From Roseovarius sp. M141 (GTDB taxonomy: Bacteria > Pseudomonadota > Alphaproteobacteria > Rhodobacterales > Rhodobacteraceae): 64,000 bases of DNA. The stretch spans positions 930,001-994,000 of the forward strand of contig NZ_VCNH01000008.1 in assembly GCF_024355225.1 (NCBI RefSeq), given 5' to 3'. Made by a program: the position numbers and the translations under genes. Below, in pieces: positions 11,491 to 18,007 of this stretch (the first letter of the stretch is position 1; the number at the start of each line of letters is the position of its first letter). Below the pieces are notes generated by a model. The model searched no databases, was not told the origin of the DNA, and saw only the letters and a list, made by a program, of their open reading frames with translations.

Positions 11491-12126
11491 TTACGTGCTG
11501 CGGAGTGCGGCCTGGGTCGCGGCAACGAGGATGGCAATGTCACCGCTGAGCGACAGGTTGCGATTGTAATGGGCATCCGACGCGGCGCACACGACAAGGG
11601 GCAGTTGCTGGTGATCGGAGATTTGCCAATGTCCGGTTATGCCGGGGCGAAGGTCACAGCAGTCCTGGGCAAGGTAAAGTGCCCTCTGCGACACCGTCAT
11701 CGGACGTGGACCCACAAAGCTCATGTCGCCGATCAGCACATTGAAGAGCTGTGGCAGATCGTCAAGTGCGCTCTTGCGTAGGAATTGCCCGAACCCGGTA
11801 AGGCGTGCACCGTCGATCATATCCTCGCCGCTGTCCCGCGCATGTACCCGATCCTGCGCGGCGCGGGGATTGGCGTCGTTCACCGTCGAGCGTAACTTCC
11901 ACATCTGATAGATGCGCCCGTTCATGCCAATCCGGTCCTGACCGTAGAACGGCTTGCTACCGCCAAGTGCGCACAGAAGTGCCAGAATGCCGATGATCGG
12001 CAACACAAGGGGCATGGCCAAGAGAGCCAGAAAAATGTCGAGGGCACGTTTGCACGATGTGCGATAAATGTCCGAAACGGGGGCTGTGCCAATCGTTTCG
12101 AAAGGCTTGGAACTATTGCTGCTCAT
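11491..12126 (-). CDS. ExoY-type undecaprenyl-phosphate sugar phosphotransferase
   Basis: A 211-residue bacterial sugar transferase of the polyprenol-phosphate hexose-1-phosphate family, which starts exopolysaccharide or O-antigen repeat-unit synthesis on the inner membrane. Visible are one N-terminal membrane helix (KRALDIFLALLAMPLVLPII, about 27-50) and the family blocks YQMWKLRST, LRKSALDDLPQLFNVLIGDMSFVGPRP and LRPGITGHWQ. No other exopolysaccharide genes are next to it. Its upstream region on the minus strand contains structured element A about 100 bases before the ATG, so a regulated leader is possible. Confidence 0.85.
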   Translation of the reverse strand: MSSNSSKPFETIGTAPVSDIYRTSCKRALDIFLALLAMPLVLPIIGILALLCALGGSKPFYGQDRIGMNGRIYQMWKLRSTVNDANPRAAQDRVHARDSGEDMIDGARLTGFGQFLRKSALDDLPQLFNVLIGDMSFVGPRPMTVSQRALYLAQDCCDLRPGITGHWQISDHQQLPLVVCAASDAHYNRNLSLSGDIAILVAATQAALRST

Positions 12127-12229
12127 GCATCACTCGATCTTTAACGCTCTCGTGCCCGACAGTTCGACAATCCGGCACTCAAAGGAACAAAAACAAAGTA
12201 TCCGACAGGACACGGGGTGAAAAAACAAA

Positions 12230-12328
12230 GGGGCGGTTACTGGTTACCGAAACTACTGTGGACACCCGCCCCTTACTGTTCATACCCGTATAGCGGGTGA
12301 CCTAGCGACCTGTCTTTTGAGACAGGTC
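12230..12328. other. Structured non-coding element, copy A
   Basis: Stem 1 is GGGGCGG (12230-12236) with CCGCCCC (12266-12272), extendable to 9 base pairs, closing a 29-base loop. After a 34-base spacer comes stem 3, GACCTGTCT / AGACAGGTC (12307-12328). The spacer contains a further ACCCG / CGGGT hairpin. A homologous copy lies at 17748-17847 with identical loop and spacer lengths and two compensated base changes in stem 1. On the minus strand stem 1 is followed by CTTTGTTTTTTC and lies about 100 bases before the sugar-transferase start, so a leader or terminator role is possible. Identity unknown. Confidence 0.6.
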
Positions 12329-12676
12329 GGCGGCTAATCAGGGTCTGAGAAGGCGGTATCGCATTGATTTTAGCGCCATCAGCCCGGCTTCTTGGGCTTT
12401 TCGGGTTGCTGGGGTGACCGGCTTTGACGCCGTAACGCCCTCGCCCGACTGCCTTGACGCGCCAAGGCGGGTACAAGGGACCTGACCGCCACGGGCATCA
12501 TGGTCTAGTCATCGGCGATTCTTCAGCAATGCCGATGCGTCTCTTGGCGCCGCCTGTTGCCCCTCCCAAACCGTGCCGTGCAATGTGCTGTCGGGTAGTG
12601 GCTGGTCACGGACCGGCGCTGCTTTGAAGTCTTATTGTCTCAGGCCGGTTCTTCATGCCGTAACTCTGGAGGATAG
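12329..12676. other. Non-coding stretch left of the insertion sequence
   Basis: About 350 bases between structured element A and the IS target site. No ORF here has a recognisable product. The first roughly 150 bases have weak, patchy similarity to the sequence after element B (for example GGTTGCTG and TTGAC-rich stretches), so the homologous unit may be longer than the structured core. Confidence 0.4.
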
Positions 12677-12681
12677 GTTTG

Positions 12682-12711
12682 TGAACTGGCCCCCCTTTCG
12701 ACCGGAGACTC
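12682..12711 (+). repeat. Left terminal inverted repeat of the IS
   Basis: Pairs with 13998-14026 on the opposite strand. About 24 of 30 positions match allowing one gap, including the C-rich run and the CCGGA-ACTC inner end. Confidence 0.85.
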
Positions 12712-12748
12712 GGGCATAACCATGGAGGCTTAGGGGAGCCCTAAGCAC

Positions 12749-13999
12749 GTGCTTATGTCTGACTATGAGATTATCACCGATGGCGGCCGTCGGCGTCGCT
12801 GGTCGTCGTCCGAGAAGCTGCGCATCGTGGAGGAGACGCTGGACGAGACCGCCAGCATCTCGGTCGTTGCACGCCGCAATGGTGTCGCGCCGAACCTGCT
12901 GTATCGTTGGCGGCGTCTGATGCTGGAGGGAGGGGCCGTGGCCGTATCTGGAGACGATGACGTCACAAGCAATCGCGCGGTCCGGCAGATGGAGGATCGC
13001 ATTCGCGAGCTGGAGCGCCAACTGGGGCGAAAGACCCTCGAAGTCGAAATCCTCAAGGAGGCGCTCGACAAGTCACGCTCAAAAAAACTGACGTGGCAAG
13101 TGCAATCGCAGCCCAAGGACGGTTCCCCCCTCTCGGGCATGCAGGCATGCCCTGCCGGGCAGTGGATGAGCATCGTGGCCGAAACTCTGGGCGTCTCCAG
13201 ATCGAACCTGCACGCCCGCGTGACGGGAAGCGCGAAGCCGCGTCGGCGCTATCATAAAGCGCAAGACGCGGCGGTGGTGCCGCTCATCACCGCGCTGGTG
13301 GCGGCGCGACCGACCTACGGGTATCGTCGCATCACGGCCATCCTGAACCGGCAGTTGCGTGCCACCGGCGCATCGCCTGTTAATCACAAACGCGTCTACC
13401 GGATCATGCAGGCCCAGAACCTGCTGCTGGCGCGTCGCTACACCGAACGGTCCGATCGCGCGCACAACGGCAAGATCGTGACTATGCGATCGAACCTGCG
13501 ATGGTGCTCAGACGGCTTCGAGTTCACATGCTGGAATGGTGACATCGTGCGTGGCGCATTCATCATCGACGCCCACGACCGTGAAATCATCGCCTGGTGC
13601 GCCGTGGTGAACGCAGGCATCAGCGGATCGGACGTGCGCGACATGATGCTGGCGGCGGTGGAGGCGCGGTTTGGCGGCCATCGCGCGCCGCACCAGGTCG
13701 AGATGCTCAGCGACAACGGTTCGCCCTACATCGCCAAGGAAACCTGCATCTTCGCCCGCCAGCTCGGCCTGAAACCCTGCTATACGCCGGTGAAGAGCCC
13801 GCAGAGCAATGGGATATCCGAGGCATTCGTGAACACGCTCAAGCGGGACTACGTGAACGTCACTCCGCTGCCAGACGCCGTCACCGTCCTTGGATTGATT
13901 GCCGGATGGTTCGAAGACTACAATGAGAACCACCCGCATTCGGGGCTGAAGATGCGCTCACCACGCGAGTTCATCGCAGCCCAAACCGCAACCGCCTGA
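12749..13999 (+). CDS. IS3-family transposase, OrfA and OrfB fused in one frame
   Basis: 416 residues from GTG 12749 (or ATG 12755). The OrfA part (about 1-110) has the HTH region WSSSEKLRIVEETLDETASI and a leucine-rich coiled coil (RIRELERQLGRKTLEVEIL). The OrfB part has the DDE catalytic residues in CSDGFEF, LSDNGSPYI and SNGISEAFVNTLKRDY. IS2-group elements normally make the fusion by -1 slippage at an A-rich site. Here seven A residues (13081-13087) sit at the junction and both parts are already in the same frame. A perfect CTTAGGG/CCCTAAG hairpin (12729-12745) lies just before the start and could limit translation by read-in. Confidence 0.9.
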   Translation: MLMSDYEIITDGGRRRRWSSSEKLRIVEETLDETASISVVARRNGVAPNLLYRWRRLMLEGGAVAVSGDDDVTSNRAVRQMEDRIRELERQLGRKTLEVEILKEALDKSRSKKLTWQVQSQPKDGSPLSGMQACPAGQWMSIVAETLGVSRSNLHARVTGSAKPRRRYHKAQDAAVVPLITALVAARPTYGYRRITAILNRQLRATGASPVNHKRVYRIMQAQNLLLARRYTERSDRAHNGKIVTMRSNLRWCSDGFEFTCWNGDIVRGAFIIDAHDREIIAWCAVVNAGISGSDVRDMMLAAVEARFGGHRAPHQVEMLSDNGSPYIAKETCIFARQLGLKPCYTPVKSPQSNGISEAFVNTLKRDYVNVTPLPDAVTVLGLIAGWFEDYNENHPHSGLKMRSPREFIAAQTATA

Positions 14000-14026
14000 G
14001 TGTCCGGTGAAAAGGGGGCAAGATCA
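13998..14026 (-). repeat. Right terminal inverted repeat of the IS
   Basis: Reverse complement matches the left end. Its inner end overlaps the transposase stop codon (13997-13999). Confidence 0.85.
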
Positions 14027-14172
14027 GTTTGCTCATCCGGACAAGCGGCCATATCGGGTTTCCGGCGTGACTCATGATCCGGCGGCCATTTATGGAACAC
14101 AGTCAATCCACGGTGGTCAAACGTCATATCCAAATCAGTGGGAAAAGCGATGTTGCAGTCATGCCGTCGACA

Positions 14173-14208
14173 GTTTTGACGCTTACCTAAGTTTTGACGC
14201 TTACCTAA
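14173..14208 (+). repeat. 18-base tandem duplication
   Basis: Two identical adjacent copies of an 18-base unit (GTTTTGACGCTTACCTAA) at 14173-14190 and 14191-14208. They lie about 65-100 bases upstream of the small membrane protein. The second copy runs into the palindrome TACCTAAAGGTA (14202-14213). Recent slippage or a duplicated operator are both possible. Confidence 0.8.
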
Positions 14209-14274
14209 AGGTATGTATTGCAATCTGCCGGCTCAGGCTTAGGTTGTTTTTAAGGTTAACCAATAGGGTGCGCT

Positions 14275-14478
14275 GTGATTATAGGATATTTAGTCGTCGG
14301 TATCTTTCTGGGCTTGATGTCGCTGGCTGTGGTGCTGCTGCTTGGGGCGCCGCTTTGGGTCGGCCTTCTAACCTATGTCGCGGTTGGTTCAGGGTCTGTC
14401 GCCGTTTTGGCCGCCCTGCGCCTTGTCGCTACTATGCGTCATGATACGCAAAGGACACAGTCCGAAGGCGCGCAGTAA
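14275..14478 (+). CDS. Small two-helix membrane protein of unknown function
   Basis: 67 residues from GTG 14275. Two hydrophobic segments are clear (about residues 3-25 and 27-49), with a short basic and polar C-terminus (RLVATMRHDTQRTQSEGAQ). No family was recognised. It stands alone on the plus strand between the IS and the minus-strand quorum-sensing genes. Strong hydrophobic patterning and an isolated position support it as a real gene, but the ribosome site is weak. Confidence 0.55.
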   Translation: MIIGYLVVGIFLGLMSLAVVLLLGAPLWVGLLTYVAVGSGSVAVLAALRLVATMRHDTQRTQSEGAQ

Positions 14479-14689
14479 ACTAGGATGCTGGGCCAAGGTG
14501 CGGTTGCACGGGAATGGCCGATACCTGTTCTCCCCGTTTGTGACGATCCGTTTTTTTCTCTCTTCAGGCAGCCGTCTCGATTGGTGCGCCGGTGCGACAG
14601 GCCAATTCCGAACCCCGTCGCGCGTGACGGCCTCAAGCGGCCAATGTGAGCGGCATTCCAATACCGCTCAAAAGGCGCAGGTCGGCTGT

Positions 14690-15247
14690 TCAGCTTATGG
14701 GGTGTGTATGGCGGATTGACAGGTCCAGAAGCATCTCGCCGAATTCGGGTTCGCTTTCCGGCCCCTGAAGGGTCAGCCGGTGCAGGCTTTGGAAATCTGC
14801 AAAGATCTGCTCGCGTTCGTCATCGGTGAAATCCCTGTCCGACCGTGAAAACGCGCCGATGCTCTTTGAACCGCTTTCAGAGGTCGCCATGACGGCCCAG
14901 TAGTTTAGGCCGAACTCGGTCGCCTTCTCGAAAACACCGTGGTTATCCAGCTTTTGGAGTTCGGGCCACGATGCGATTCCGTCGTTGGCAAAGCCCCACA
15001 ATACGGCCGGATCCTTCATTACGATCCCCTTGCTGGAATAATAGTTCATCCAGTCGTCGCCATAGGTCTGGAAGAGGTATTTGGGAGTGGTGAATGCGAC
15101 CTGAAAAGCTGTCGCAAAGCCACAAGGGCTTTGTTGTTTCAGACGGGTCAATAAGGACCTCAGGTCGTCTATAAGGTTCACTGTACGCTCCACCGTATCA
15201 GACTGACGAATCAACATATGTGTCGTAACTGGACAATCGCGGCCCAC
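14690..15247 (-). CDS. LuxR-like autoinducer-binding domain protein lacking the HTH
   Basis: 185 residues from GTG 15247, with a strong site AGGGGGGGCGGA just before it. The N-terminal part matches the LuxR ligand-binding fold: DDWMNYYSSKGIVMKDPAVLW carries the conserved Trp, Tyr and Asp-Pro of the acyl-homoserine-lactone pocket, then ASWPEL and SGSKSIGAFSRSDRDFTDDE. The protein stops soon after LHRLTLQG, where LuxR proteins enter the GerE-type HTH. No HTH remnant is found downstream in any minus-strand frame. It is the last gene after luxR and luxI on the same strand. A dominant-negative or ligand-sequestering modulator, like the truncated TraR paralogue TrlR, is plausible but inferred. Confidence 0.8.
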   Translation of the reverse strand: MGRDCPVTTHMLIRQSDTVERTVNLIDDLRSLLTRLKQQSPCGFATAFQVAFTTPKYLFQTYGDDWMNYYSSKGIVMKDPAVLWGFANDGIASWPELQKLDNHGVFEKATEFGLNYWAVMATSESGSKSIGAFSRSDRDFTDDEREQIFADFQSLHRLTLQGPESEPEFGEMLLDLSIRHTHPIS

Positions 15248-15269
15248 TCCGCCCCCCCTACGCGCGCCC

Positions 15270-15392
15270 TTACGCCATGGACGGAGCCGCCGCCGTTCTT
15301 ACCGGACGGTTGAGGTTGGCCGCCGGGACCAGAAACAGACAGAAATCCAATACGAAGTAGCGCTCGTCTGTTTCGCTGATAATTTCCCGCAT
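15270..15392 (-). CDS. Possible 40-residue ORF between luxI and the HTH-less LuxR gene
   Basis: ATG 15392-15390 is preceded by GGAGGA with a 10-base gap. The peptide begins MREIISETDERYFVLDFCLF, has a central hydrophobic patch, and ends at TAA 15272-15270. The next gene starts 22 bases downstream. No family recognised. The good ribosome site and its place in the otherwise empty luxI to luxR-like gap are the only support. Confidence 0.4.
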   Translation of the reverse strand: MREIISETDERYFVLDFCLFLVPAANLNRPVRTAAAPSMA

Positions 15393-15481
15393 CGTGCCCT
15401 AGTCCTCCTGCCCGAAGCAAAGAAGTGCTCAGCCGGGCATTTATTGAGACTTTAATTCGATAGCGTTCCTTGGGCAACCTG

Positions 15482-16117
15482 TCAAACATTTGCTTGCCGC
15501 CGCAGGTGGACCGTGGCGTCTGCGTGGACTGCGGGCATTGACAGGATCGCATAGGACCGCCCGTCATGCTTGTTGCGGTACTTGTCGCCCACCTGCTCGA
15601 CATCGTAGCCCAGTTTGCGCAGCGACCGGCGGAAGCCGGGAACCGTCAGGGTCACCAGATCGGCCGATCCCTGTTCGATCGCCAGTTGCACAAGCCCCTG
15701 AACAACCAGCGCAAGTGCCTCCTGCCTGTCGTCCTGAGATGTCAGCTGATCGGACAGGACAAGCCGGGTGCATTCCGAAGAATTGGCGAACCTGTGAGCC
15801 CGCGGAAGAAGATCCGCCGGAATGCCGTCAATTCGTCCTTCTGCCGCATCCTGAAGCATACAGCCGTGGCTGCCCCATTTGTCGGAAAACCGCATCAGGC
15901 GCGCACCGCCTACCAGGCGACCATTCATGATCGCGACTGAATAGGCCGCGGTGGGGTTGTCGTATTGATCCATTTCGACACTGTCATTGTGCGGAATGTC
16001 CCAAGCCAGCGTATCCACGAAGAATCGCTTACGCAGTTCGAGGAACTCGTAGAAGGCTGAACCGTGCAGGTGCATATTGGACAGGTCGAAGGTGATACCG
16101 GTGATTTTGTTTGCCAT
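15482..16117 (-). CDS. Acyl-homoserine-lactone synthase (LuxI family)
   Basis: 211 residues, the usual LuxI length. The N-terminal conserved set is present: FLELRKRFFVDTLAWDIP (Arg, Phe, Trp), then VEMDQYDNPTAAY (Asp pair), then VGGARLMRF and the ECTRLVLS block with Glu and Arg. The enzyme makes the AHL signal from S-adenosylmethionine and an acyl carrier, in the cytoplasm. It lies 100 bases downstream of luxR on the same strand. The gap contains a lux-box-like palindrome about 30-53 bases before its ATG, fitting positive autoregulation. Acyl-chain specificity cannot be read. Confidence 0.93.
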   Translation of the reverse strand: MANKITGITFDLSNMHLHGSAFYEFLELRKRFFVDTLAWDIPHNDSVEMDQYDNPTAAYSVAIMNGRLVGGARLMRFSDKWGSHGCMLQDAAEGRIDGIPADLLPRAHRFANSSECTRLVLSDQLTSQDDRQEALALVVQGLVQLAIEQGSADLVTLTVPGFRRSLRKLGYDVEQVGDKYRNKHDGRSYAILSMPAVHADATVHLRRQANV

Positions 16118-16147
16118 TTGCCATGCTCACTTAAGTTTGAAATGTGA

Positions 16148-16170
16148 AGCTGTACGTGTCGCGCACAGCT
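16148..16170. promoter_or_regulatory. Lux-box-like palindrome upstream of luxI
   Basis: AGCTGTACG and CGCACAGCT form an inverted repeat with one mismatch around the 5-base centre TGTCG. The CTGT...ACAG ends resemble lux boxes, though the spacing (11 bases between CTGT and ACAG) is longer than in the Vibrio site. It lies between the luxR stop and luxI start, 31-53 bases before the luxI ATG. Confidence 0.5.
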
Positions 16171-16219
16171 GTTTCCCCGCTCTTAACGGGTACATGGCAT
16201 TAATGTGTTGAATTGGCGT

Positions 16220-16837
16220 TTAAATCCAGCCATATCCCTTCGCTTGGCCAACAGCTTGTGTATTTGTGCGTGCGCCGAGCTTGGATCGGGCGTTGGTCAG
16301 GCGCAGCTTTACGGCGCTTTCGCTGATGTCCAGCTCGTGGGCGATTTGCTTTAGCATCAGGCCGGACGCCAACATTTCGAGCGCCTCGATCTCAGCCTTT
16401 GTCAGCGCGCGCGCGGGAGAAAGCGCATGGTGTAGCTCATCCACCGCGTGGCTCAGAAGCTCAAGCTCTCCATCCTCGAATTCGCGATCAGTGCGCGCGA
16501 ACGACCCGAAAGAGCGCAGGCCAGGCGTGTCGTCGTGCATCACGCTGATCGCTGCGCCATAGCGCAAACCGAACGTGGCCGCGGTTGTCAGCACCTTGCG
16601 TTCGTCCCTGTTGGCAATGGCGCTCCAGCGTGTGTGGCCTGAGTTGTCATAGACCCAATGGATGATCGGATCGAAGATCATCAACCCGTCCCTCGTGTAC
16701 ATTTCGACCCAGTCCTGCGGCAGCGAGTTGCGCTGATATTCTGGAAACGCAAACCCCACGCGCAAGGCCAAGTGATACCCAGCAGTGGCGAGGGCATCGA
16801 AATCATACTTGGCAAGGAGTTGGTCTAACGTTTCCAT
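16220..16837 (-). CDS. LuxR-family quorum-sensing regulator
   Basis: 205 residues. The N-terminal autoinducer-binding domain shows QDWVEMYTRDGLMIFDPIIHW with the conserved Trp, Tyr and Asp-Pro. The C-terminal GerE/LuxR HTH spans about 143-205 (LTKAEIEALEMLASGLMLKQIAHELDISESAVKLRL...). A site AAGGGA precedes ATG 16837. It is immediately upstream of luxI on the same strand, so it is the likely cognate AHL receptor. Confidence 0.92.
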   Translation of the reverse strand: METLDQLLAKYDFDALATAGYHLALRVGFAFPEYQRNSLPQDWVEMYTRDGLMIFDPIIHWVYDNSGHTRWSAIANRDERKVLTTAATFGLRYGAAISVMHDDTPGLRSFGSFARTDREFEDGELELLSHAVDELHHALSPARALTKAEIEALEMLASGLMLKQIAHELDISESAVKLRLTNARSKLGARTNTQAVGQAKGYGWI

Positions 16838-18007
16838 GTGTCCCTTGGATTGTATCCTAAAGGAATCTCAGGGGAAGTCCTGCATTGGGAAGTCTATGAG
16901 GATCCCTCGAAGTAGTCTTTAAAATATAAGCGAATAACGAATGTAGTCTCTAATACTTGAATGGGCAAATCTTGCGTCCGACACCACCAAAGGGCGAATC
17001 GTCGACCTGTTAGCCCGAAACGTATCCGGATGGCAACGGATCAGGGGCTCTGTCCGGGACGTCATTGGCAAGCCTCCTTTGGCGTGGTCCGCCCGCTGAG
17101 ATGTGAGAAATTTGTTTGCAGCAGGACCAGAGGATGGCCTCAAAGCGAGCAAAGCAGGCTCGGGACGCAGTCCGTCAGATCGGCGTGACGGTGTAGAGCT
17201 GCTATCATGGCGCAAAAAACAAGGGGGAGGGCATAAGCGGCAATCCGCCCATTACTGCGTGCGAGAGGGAGTGCGAGGTGGGACGCCAACGCCGTGGGCG
17301 CGCCGAATCACCTCCGCCGCGGCCAAGTTGACGCTGACAGACGCCGCACAGAGGGTCGCCCCAGCCCGTCTCGCGACCGTATCGATCAGGTGCGCCCAAC
17401 GCCTCGGCGTATCGGGGCGCAGGGGCTGTCGCACATTGAGACAGCTTCGATCGACCACCGGTGCCAAAAAGCACTGCGCCGATAAATCAAAGACCGATCA
17501 TGCGCCAAATTCAAACTGGACGATTCGATGGGGGGTGACCCGCGAAGCAGTGACCATCCGGCTGGAGGTCAGGGCGGCGCTGGGCAGGATTGCGGCCATC
17601 ATGCGCGCCATAGCGGCGCCGCCATGATCTTTCCGTCCAAGCGGGTACGATCACGGCGGCGTCAAGGCCGGTAGCCCTCCGGAAAGGGCGTGATTGGCTG
17701 GCAGCATTGGTAAAGAACGCGCTGCGAATACAATGTAAACAAACTGAAGTGCGGTTACTCGTTAACTAAGTGACTTTGGACATCCGCACTGTCACGTTTC
17801 TAACCCTATGCAAGGTGGTGCGGCGACCTGTCTTTTAGGACAGGGTCCCGCGTCAAACGCATTGCAGGCGAATCTGGTCTTTTCAGTAATGCCCGGCGGT
17901 TGCTGAGATGTGCCTGTTTTCAAGGGGTCGAACGTCTTGACCGCCGTGAGAGCCGCCTTGGCGCCGGACCGCCCTGAGTGACGCAATGTGCCTCTGGATG
18001 CGCCCGT
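16838..18007. other. 1.17 kb region without a supported gene
   Basis: Between the luxR start and the crotonase stop. The longest plus-strand reading (17103-17627, 174 codons) is Arg- and Ala-rich with no recognisable domain or ribosome site, and minus-strand frames are equally uninformative. The stretch contains structured element B at 17748-17847 and must hold the luxR promoter. It may include worn-out genes, but I cannot name one. Confidence 0.5.
17748..17847. other. Structured non-coding element, copy B
   Basis: Homologue of element A in the same orientation. Stem 1 is AGTGCGG (17748-17754) with CCGCACT (17784-17790), again closing a 29-base loop. A 34-base spacer follows, then stem 3 GACCTGTC / GACAGGGTC (17825-17847) with a one-base bulge, extendable through GCGG/CCGC. 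Compared with copy A the loop matches at 21 of 29 positions. Two stem-1 pairs have changed on both sides (G-C to A-T and G-C to T-A). On the minus strand the stem is followed by TTCAGTTTGTTTAC. Confidence 0.6.

Follow-up and report, generated by a model that had tools for sequence, protein, structure and literature searches.

What are the two related elements that stand on either side of an insertion sequence (IS) and a luxR-luxI pair in Roseovarius sp. M141? The window analysed here is a 64-kb stretch of that genome (64,000 nucleotides, positions 930,001 to 994,000 of contig NZ_VCNH01000008.1), and the elements, each about 100 base pairs (bp) long, are copy 1 (c1, 12228..12330) and copy 2 (c2, 17746..17848), both given on the minus strand. 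A first-pass annotation, made from the letters alone, had described them as homologous structured elements matching at about 70% of positions, and had proposed a small RNA family, a leader element or the terminal structures of a mobile unit. We consider it probable that each element, taken in the minus-strand direction of the window, is a quorum-sensing promoter or control module that serves polysaccharide and surface genes. Four sequence-level observations make up the case: the homology of the copies, the fit of one segment to a published operator motif, the arrangement of the genes, and the co-occurrence with a LuxR-type regulator.

The homology was borne out. In a blastn search of positions 12225-12335 against the whole genome (4.5 Mb and 9 contigs, the scope of all whole-genome searches here), c1 (12230-12330) aligned with c2 (17748-17848) at 69% identity over 94 bases. 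With an E value of 4.3e-4, the resemblance is beyond chance, and the alignment is gap-free at an offset of 5518. DNA search, pattern search, an ungapped matrix scan and a sequence-only model (R1, built from five copies) gave seven full copies in total, five of them unseen in the first-pass annotation. Two of the five lie in the same genome, at contig C2:113990-114087 and at C8:410012-410112 (C8:410k, below). Another is held, as a single full copy, by a genome of the same genus (G051); one is in G410, at a locus matching an uncultured Sedimentitalea record (L142); and one is on a plasmid of Qingshengfaniella alkalisoli (G217, NZ_CP042264.1). The ~100-bp module rests on these homologous repeated copies, and the alignment of all seven (A6) excludes box-only matches. 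Six of 394 genomes in a family sample matched R1 at E 0.01 or better, three of them at full length (best 10 candidates scored per genome). Among 84 congeners (best 47 scored per genome), 11 matched at E 0.5 or better and only two, G000 and G051, hold the full element; the best match below these two reached E 0.028 over 35 positions. No further copy was found in two other genomes of the genus of G410, and a plasmid nucleotide-similarity search with two copies gave no match.

One segment of the module is what the first-pass annotation had called a third hairpin. It is indeed common to both copies (~12305-12330 and 17823-17848), but it matches a LuxR-type operator palindrome and need not be RNA. 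Because it fits the published GtaR motif with one mismatch, we consider it best read as a putative DNA operator. That motif, RACMTGTCYWWWWRGACAKGTY, was derived with MEME from the upstream regions of GtaR orthologs (18 of 24; PMC11655674, section 2.16). The box of c1 (12307..12328, minus strand) and that of c2 (17825..17846, minus strand) each depart from it at one position, as do the boxes of G051, contig C2 and G217, and the box of G410 departs at two. At up to one mismatch, the motif occurs at three places in the whole genome, all within elements (c1, c2 and the contig-C2 copy). The exact palindrome, in the pattern ACCTGTCYNAAAAGACAGGT, was found in 70 stretches of genome_contigs. By record title, 28 of these are of Rhodobacterales type, 15 are from Pantoea and 27 are others. 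The 32 stretches run against the model comprised all 28 of Rhodobacterales type and four others; L142 was the only full-length module among the 28, and the remaining stretches tested were box-only or partial.

Three side observations concern the same palindrome and its neighbours. In Pantoea records (L097, L104, L110, L127, L132, L134, L136, L149, L150, L153 and L155) the exact palindrome stands in tandem at a spacing of 148-164 bp, apparently as an unrelated repeat. In four Rhodobacterales records (L086, L105, L116 and L119) the box or a variant of it precedes a gene for an XRE-type regulator (MKHPVDVHVGKRI...). A 66%-identical relative is encoded in G051, between the sugar transferase and the quorum-sensing genes.

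The arrangement of the genes, likewise unseen in the first-pass annotation, suggests that the elements function in the minus-strand direction. Read that way, c1, the G051 copy and the contig-C2 copy each precede a sugar transferase gene (PF02397). In the window this gene is at 11491..12126 (minus strand; E 7.1e-46) and is the predicted target of c1; on contig C2, which is 170 kb long, a beta-barrel gene comes after the sugar transferase gene. The C8:410k and G410 copies each precede a gene for an outer-membrane beta-barrel protein, and the two beta-barrel genes are related to each other; the Pfam match of the protein downstream of C8:410k (E 1.5e-4) is under the family's cut-off. Five of the seven copies are thus upstream of a gene. 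In four of them (c1, G051, contig C2 and C8:410k) the alignment continues in further common blocks as far as the start-codon region, which suggests that one promoter region was duplicated to another gene. Directly downstream of the c2 and G217 copies there is no recognised gene. On the minus strand, the open reading frames downstream of c2 (16919-17215 and 17103-17627) have no Pfam match, and luxR starts ~0.9 kb downstream. The G217 copy (L085 and L177) stands alone, with a convergent FGGY kinase gene on one side and a tRNA-Met gene on the other, and the PLSDB gene table, itself incomplete, lists no coding sequence on its downstream side.

The regulator that would bind the box is encoded nearby. 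On the minus strand are a LuxR-type protein (16220..16837; PF03472, autoinducer-binding, and PF00196, GerE), a LuxI-type synthase of acyl-homoserine lactone (AHL; 15482..16117; PF00765, E 9.9e-15) and a LuxR-like protein that matched PF03472 alone and no helix-turn-helix (HTH) family (14690..15247). Among the 84 congeners, eight have a match to this LuxR at E 1e-20 or better; the only close one is in G051 (84% identity), the others being at 32-35%, and identity of 73% or more and the full element occur in the same two genomes. In the family sample a match at 1e-33 or better is present in 145 of 394 genomes and falls below 1e-90 in four (G000, G410, G306 and G217), which include all three genomes with the full element. 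The gene order luxR, luxI and HTH-less luxR is retained in G051 and G217. The HTH-less gene is retained in G410 as well; the 14 kb examined there contained no recognisable LuxI, and in G410 the box is 60-80 bp from luxR. Five close LuxR proteins share the recognition helix ISESAVKLRL. In G319 and G419 it reads ISESALKARL, so that the pattern ISESA[VL]K is common to these two and the window's LuxR, and just upstream of the luxR homology they have palindromes that differ from the box at 4 and 2 positions, respectively. The helix of three other LuxR proteins is VTEGAIKQRL or VSEGAVKQRL. A box near luxR is not a general feature: over 32 LuxR loci the best box mismatches were 0, 2, 3 and 4, then 5 or more, like those of 28 control loci, which start at 5.

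From these observations we propose the following order, toward the target gene: the 22-bp GtaR/LuxR-type box, then ~56 bp in which the promoter probably lies, then the conserved GTTAACNAG block, at a near-fixed distance from the box and often inside an inverted repeat (stem 1). A T-rich stretch comes next and, in copies with a target gene, a leader of ~85-105 bp up to its listed start codon. LuxR (16220-16837), with AHL made by LuxI (15482-16117), would bind the box and control transcription of the sugar transferase at 11491-12126. Further targets would be the second sugar transferase and beta-barrel gene on the 170-kb contig and a chromosomal beta-barrel gene elsewhere. We infer the binding, the position of the promoter and the roles of stem 1 and GTTAAC, and the control may be activation or repression, since the GtaR and CerM precedents differ. 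The HTH-less LuxR may antagonise the regulator, by analogy with CerN acting on CerM.

Several results weigh against the proposal. The box of C8:410k has four mismatches to RACMTGTCYWWWWRGACAKGTY; at up to three mismatches the motif is no commoner in the genome (4 places) than a reversed control (3), and the exact palindrome is also present in unrelated bacteria. G306 encodes the LuxR (74%) and lacks a full element, having a box-sized match only (E 0.17). The genomes compared are kin, so their co-occurrence counts lack independence. In G000, G051, G217 and G306 the 450 bp upstream of luxR contained no box, and autoregulation through the box is therefore unsupported there. In G203, a palindrome with three mismatches stands upstream of luxR despite a different recognition helix. 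A simple promoter scan gave no sigma-70-like promoter on the minus strand at c1 or c2. On the plus strand it gave a site directly before c2 (17707-17734; 9 of 12 matches, 0.0 expected), which faces into the element from the opposite end.

This last site touches the idea, implied by the first-pass annotation, that the elements are read as RNA from the plus strand. Folding is slightly better on that strand for c1 and c2 (z -2.2 and -1.5), but no such sigma-70-like site lies near c1, the gene is on the other side in five of the seven copies, and in four the conserved downstream sequence is there too. A plus-strand RNA is, in our estimate, very improbable.

As the first-pass annotation had stated, the arms of stem 1 differ between the copies by two pairs changed on both sides with pairing retained: GGGGCGG/CCGCCCC in c1 (12230..12272, minus strand; arms 12230-12236 and 12266-12272) and AGTGCGG/CCGCACT in c2 (17748..17790, minus strand; arms 17748-17754 and 17784-17790), each around a 29-base loop. 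The loop carries GGTAACCAG in c1 and GTTAACNAG in the other copies. A structured RNA driven by the box would account for such arms: stem 1 and its conserved loop would form a leader hairpin (an attenuator, or an element that binds protein or RNA) or a small regulatory RNA, with free-standing genes at c2 and in G217, and the control-module reading could be true as well. The arms differ yet pair in c1, c2 and G217, where duplex energies against shuffled arms give p values of 0.002, 0.000 and 0.050, but the corresponding values are 0.296 in G051, 0.080 in contig C2, 0.470 in C8:410k and 0.130 in G410. When partners were permuted, only 8 of 5040 permutations did as well as the true pairing of the arms; by columns, however, 61.9% of cells pair (four pairs changed on both sides), 27 of 500 shuffles of the whole structure reach its covariation score, and a control slid by +2 scores higher. 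Folding z values on the minus strand are -2.0 for c1 and -2.5 for G217 and lie between -0.9 and 1.0 elsewhere (c2 -0.8, G051 0.1, contig C2 -0.4, C8:410k 1.0, G410 -0.9). With both strands considered, only c1 (either strand), c2 (plus strand) and G217 (minus strand) fall below -1.5. A T-rich stretch past the 3' arm (20 nucleotides with a T fraction of 0.35-0.55) and a loop conserved while the arms vary would suit an RNA, as would the want of a recognised gene directly downstream of c2 and G217, although the promoter or downstream gene of these two could have been lost.

Taken together, three copies show stem 1 clearly, others have it in weak or altered form and at least one has lost it; we regard the stem as suggestive, not established. 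The earlier claim of selection on a folded RNA thus draws weak support from the permutation result and is held back by the modest column count and the higher slid control. The first-pass annotation had named beforehand a search for further copies as its test, and would have counted against itself either none or some in which stem 1 was not conserved; five more full copies were found, at least one of them without stem 1, so the outcome went partly against it. It had recognised none of the known families; no Rfam family reached its gathering score in the window, and a described family was rejected on that ground. The window also yielded no tRNA. At stem 1 a plain terminator was likewise rejected, there being no short-loop stem with a T run at either c1 or c2; a terminator-like site does occur just past c1 (minus strand, 12213-12198; 1 found, 0.3 expected). 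On balance we think a structured RNA unlikely. Somewhat less likely again is the stronger form of the idea, in which hairpin RNAs form a family driven directly by the quorum-sensing regulator, each with a box, a fixed distance and a hairpin with a ~29-base conserved loop, serving as the leader of polysaccharide and surface-protein mRNAs and also occurring free-standing (c2 and the Qingshengfaniella plasmid). If true, it would give AHL signalling in Rhodobacteraceae an RNA arm.

The spacing within the module bears on a further alternative, to which we give a little less than an even chance: a DNA region with two sites only, the box and, around GTTAAC, another palindrome to which a protein binds, stem 1 being a by-product. 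The distance from the box to GTTAAC is nearly constant (79 in c1, c2, G051, C8:410k and G410, 78 in G217 and 75 in contig C2), and in the alignment the GTTAAC block with the loop is more conserved than the arms. CtrA half-sites with similar letters are described in the gafA promoter, which is also bound by GtaR (PMC6363796), but the spacing of the two TAAC-like motifs here is unlike the TTAAC-N6-GTAAC site quoted there. Covariation of the arms would not be expected of two DNA sites, and no regulator was identified for the second.

The remaining proposal is that the pair bounds a mobile unit with luxR-luxI as its cargo. The two do flank the IS and luxR-luxI in the window, but they have the same orientation, and the IS, an IS3-family element (12682-14026; transposase 12749-13999), has ends of its own, imperfect 30-bp inverted repeats, and is flanked on each side by the 5-bp repeat GTTTG. 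It is an insertion in its own right, lying between c1 and luxR-luxI. In the relative G051 a single copy stands near the quorum-sensing cluster and the sugar transferase lies on the other side, so the copies are not at both ends of a cargo there; the other copies precede single genes, and G410 and the remaining copies of the genome contradict a mobile unit as well. We rejected this reading and hold it to be extremely improbable. Of the proposals in the first-pass annotation, a repeated regulatory element has proved real, a leader having been one of the three suggestions, and the mobile-unit ends are unsupported. Just beyond the IS3 element, at 14172-14207, an 18-bp unit (AGTTTTGACGCTTACCTA) is present in two tandem copies.

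Returning to the control module, its interest is that it predicts a small and precise regulon, two sugar transferases and beta-barrel genes, for one LuxR-LuxI pair, and that a single promoter module recurs in front of several surface genes. The classical lux box of Vibrio fischeri is comparable as a 20-bp palindrome with half-sites ACCTGT/ACAGGT, and the CYNAAAAG-like centre is where the box here differs. Few LuxR target sites have been defined in Rhodobacteraceae; PMC3907830 gives one as known in 2014. In literature searches over open papers we met no report of the ~100-bp module, its within-genome copies or its target genes. Among the closest known systems are the GtaR motif of Rhodobacteraceae and the related CerM binding site of Cereibacter sphaeroides (PMC11655674). 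Six of the seven copies here depart from the 22-bp GtaR palindrome by one or two mismatches; here, too, a LuxR-type regulator is encoded near a luxI gene. The published motif, however, lies upstream of gtaR orthologs, whereas the boxes here precede sugar transferase and beta-barrel genes, inside a conserved module and, except in G410, away from luxR. That source also describes CerR/CerI, CerM and the HTH-less CerN, which the HTH-less protein encoded beside the quorum-sensing genes here resembles; antagonism of CerN on CerM was demonstrated there. CerM may be both activator and repressor, and GtaR is, by the title of a reference, a negative regulator of its own operon. In Rhodobacter capsulatus the capsule is described as being under quorum sensing (PMC10218006), a likeness in that a surface polysaccharide is concerned, but the genes are others and the mechanism here is inferred from the box only. 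The binding site is of a known kind, but the box already described does not account for the other parts of the module, among them a possible RNA hairpin, or for the fixed spacing from the box to GTTAAC and the recurring inverted repeat.

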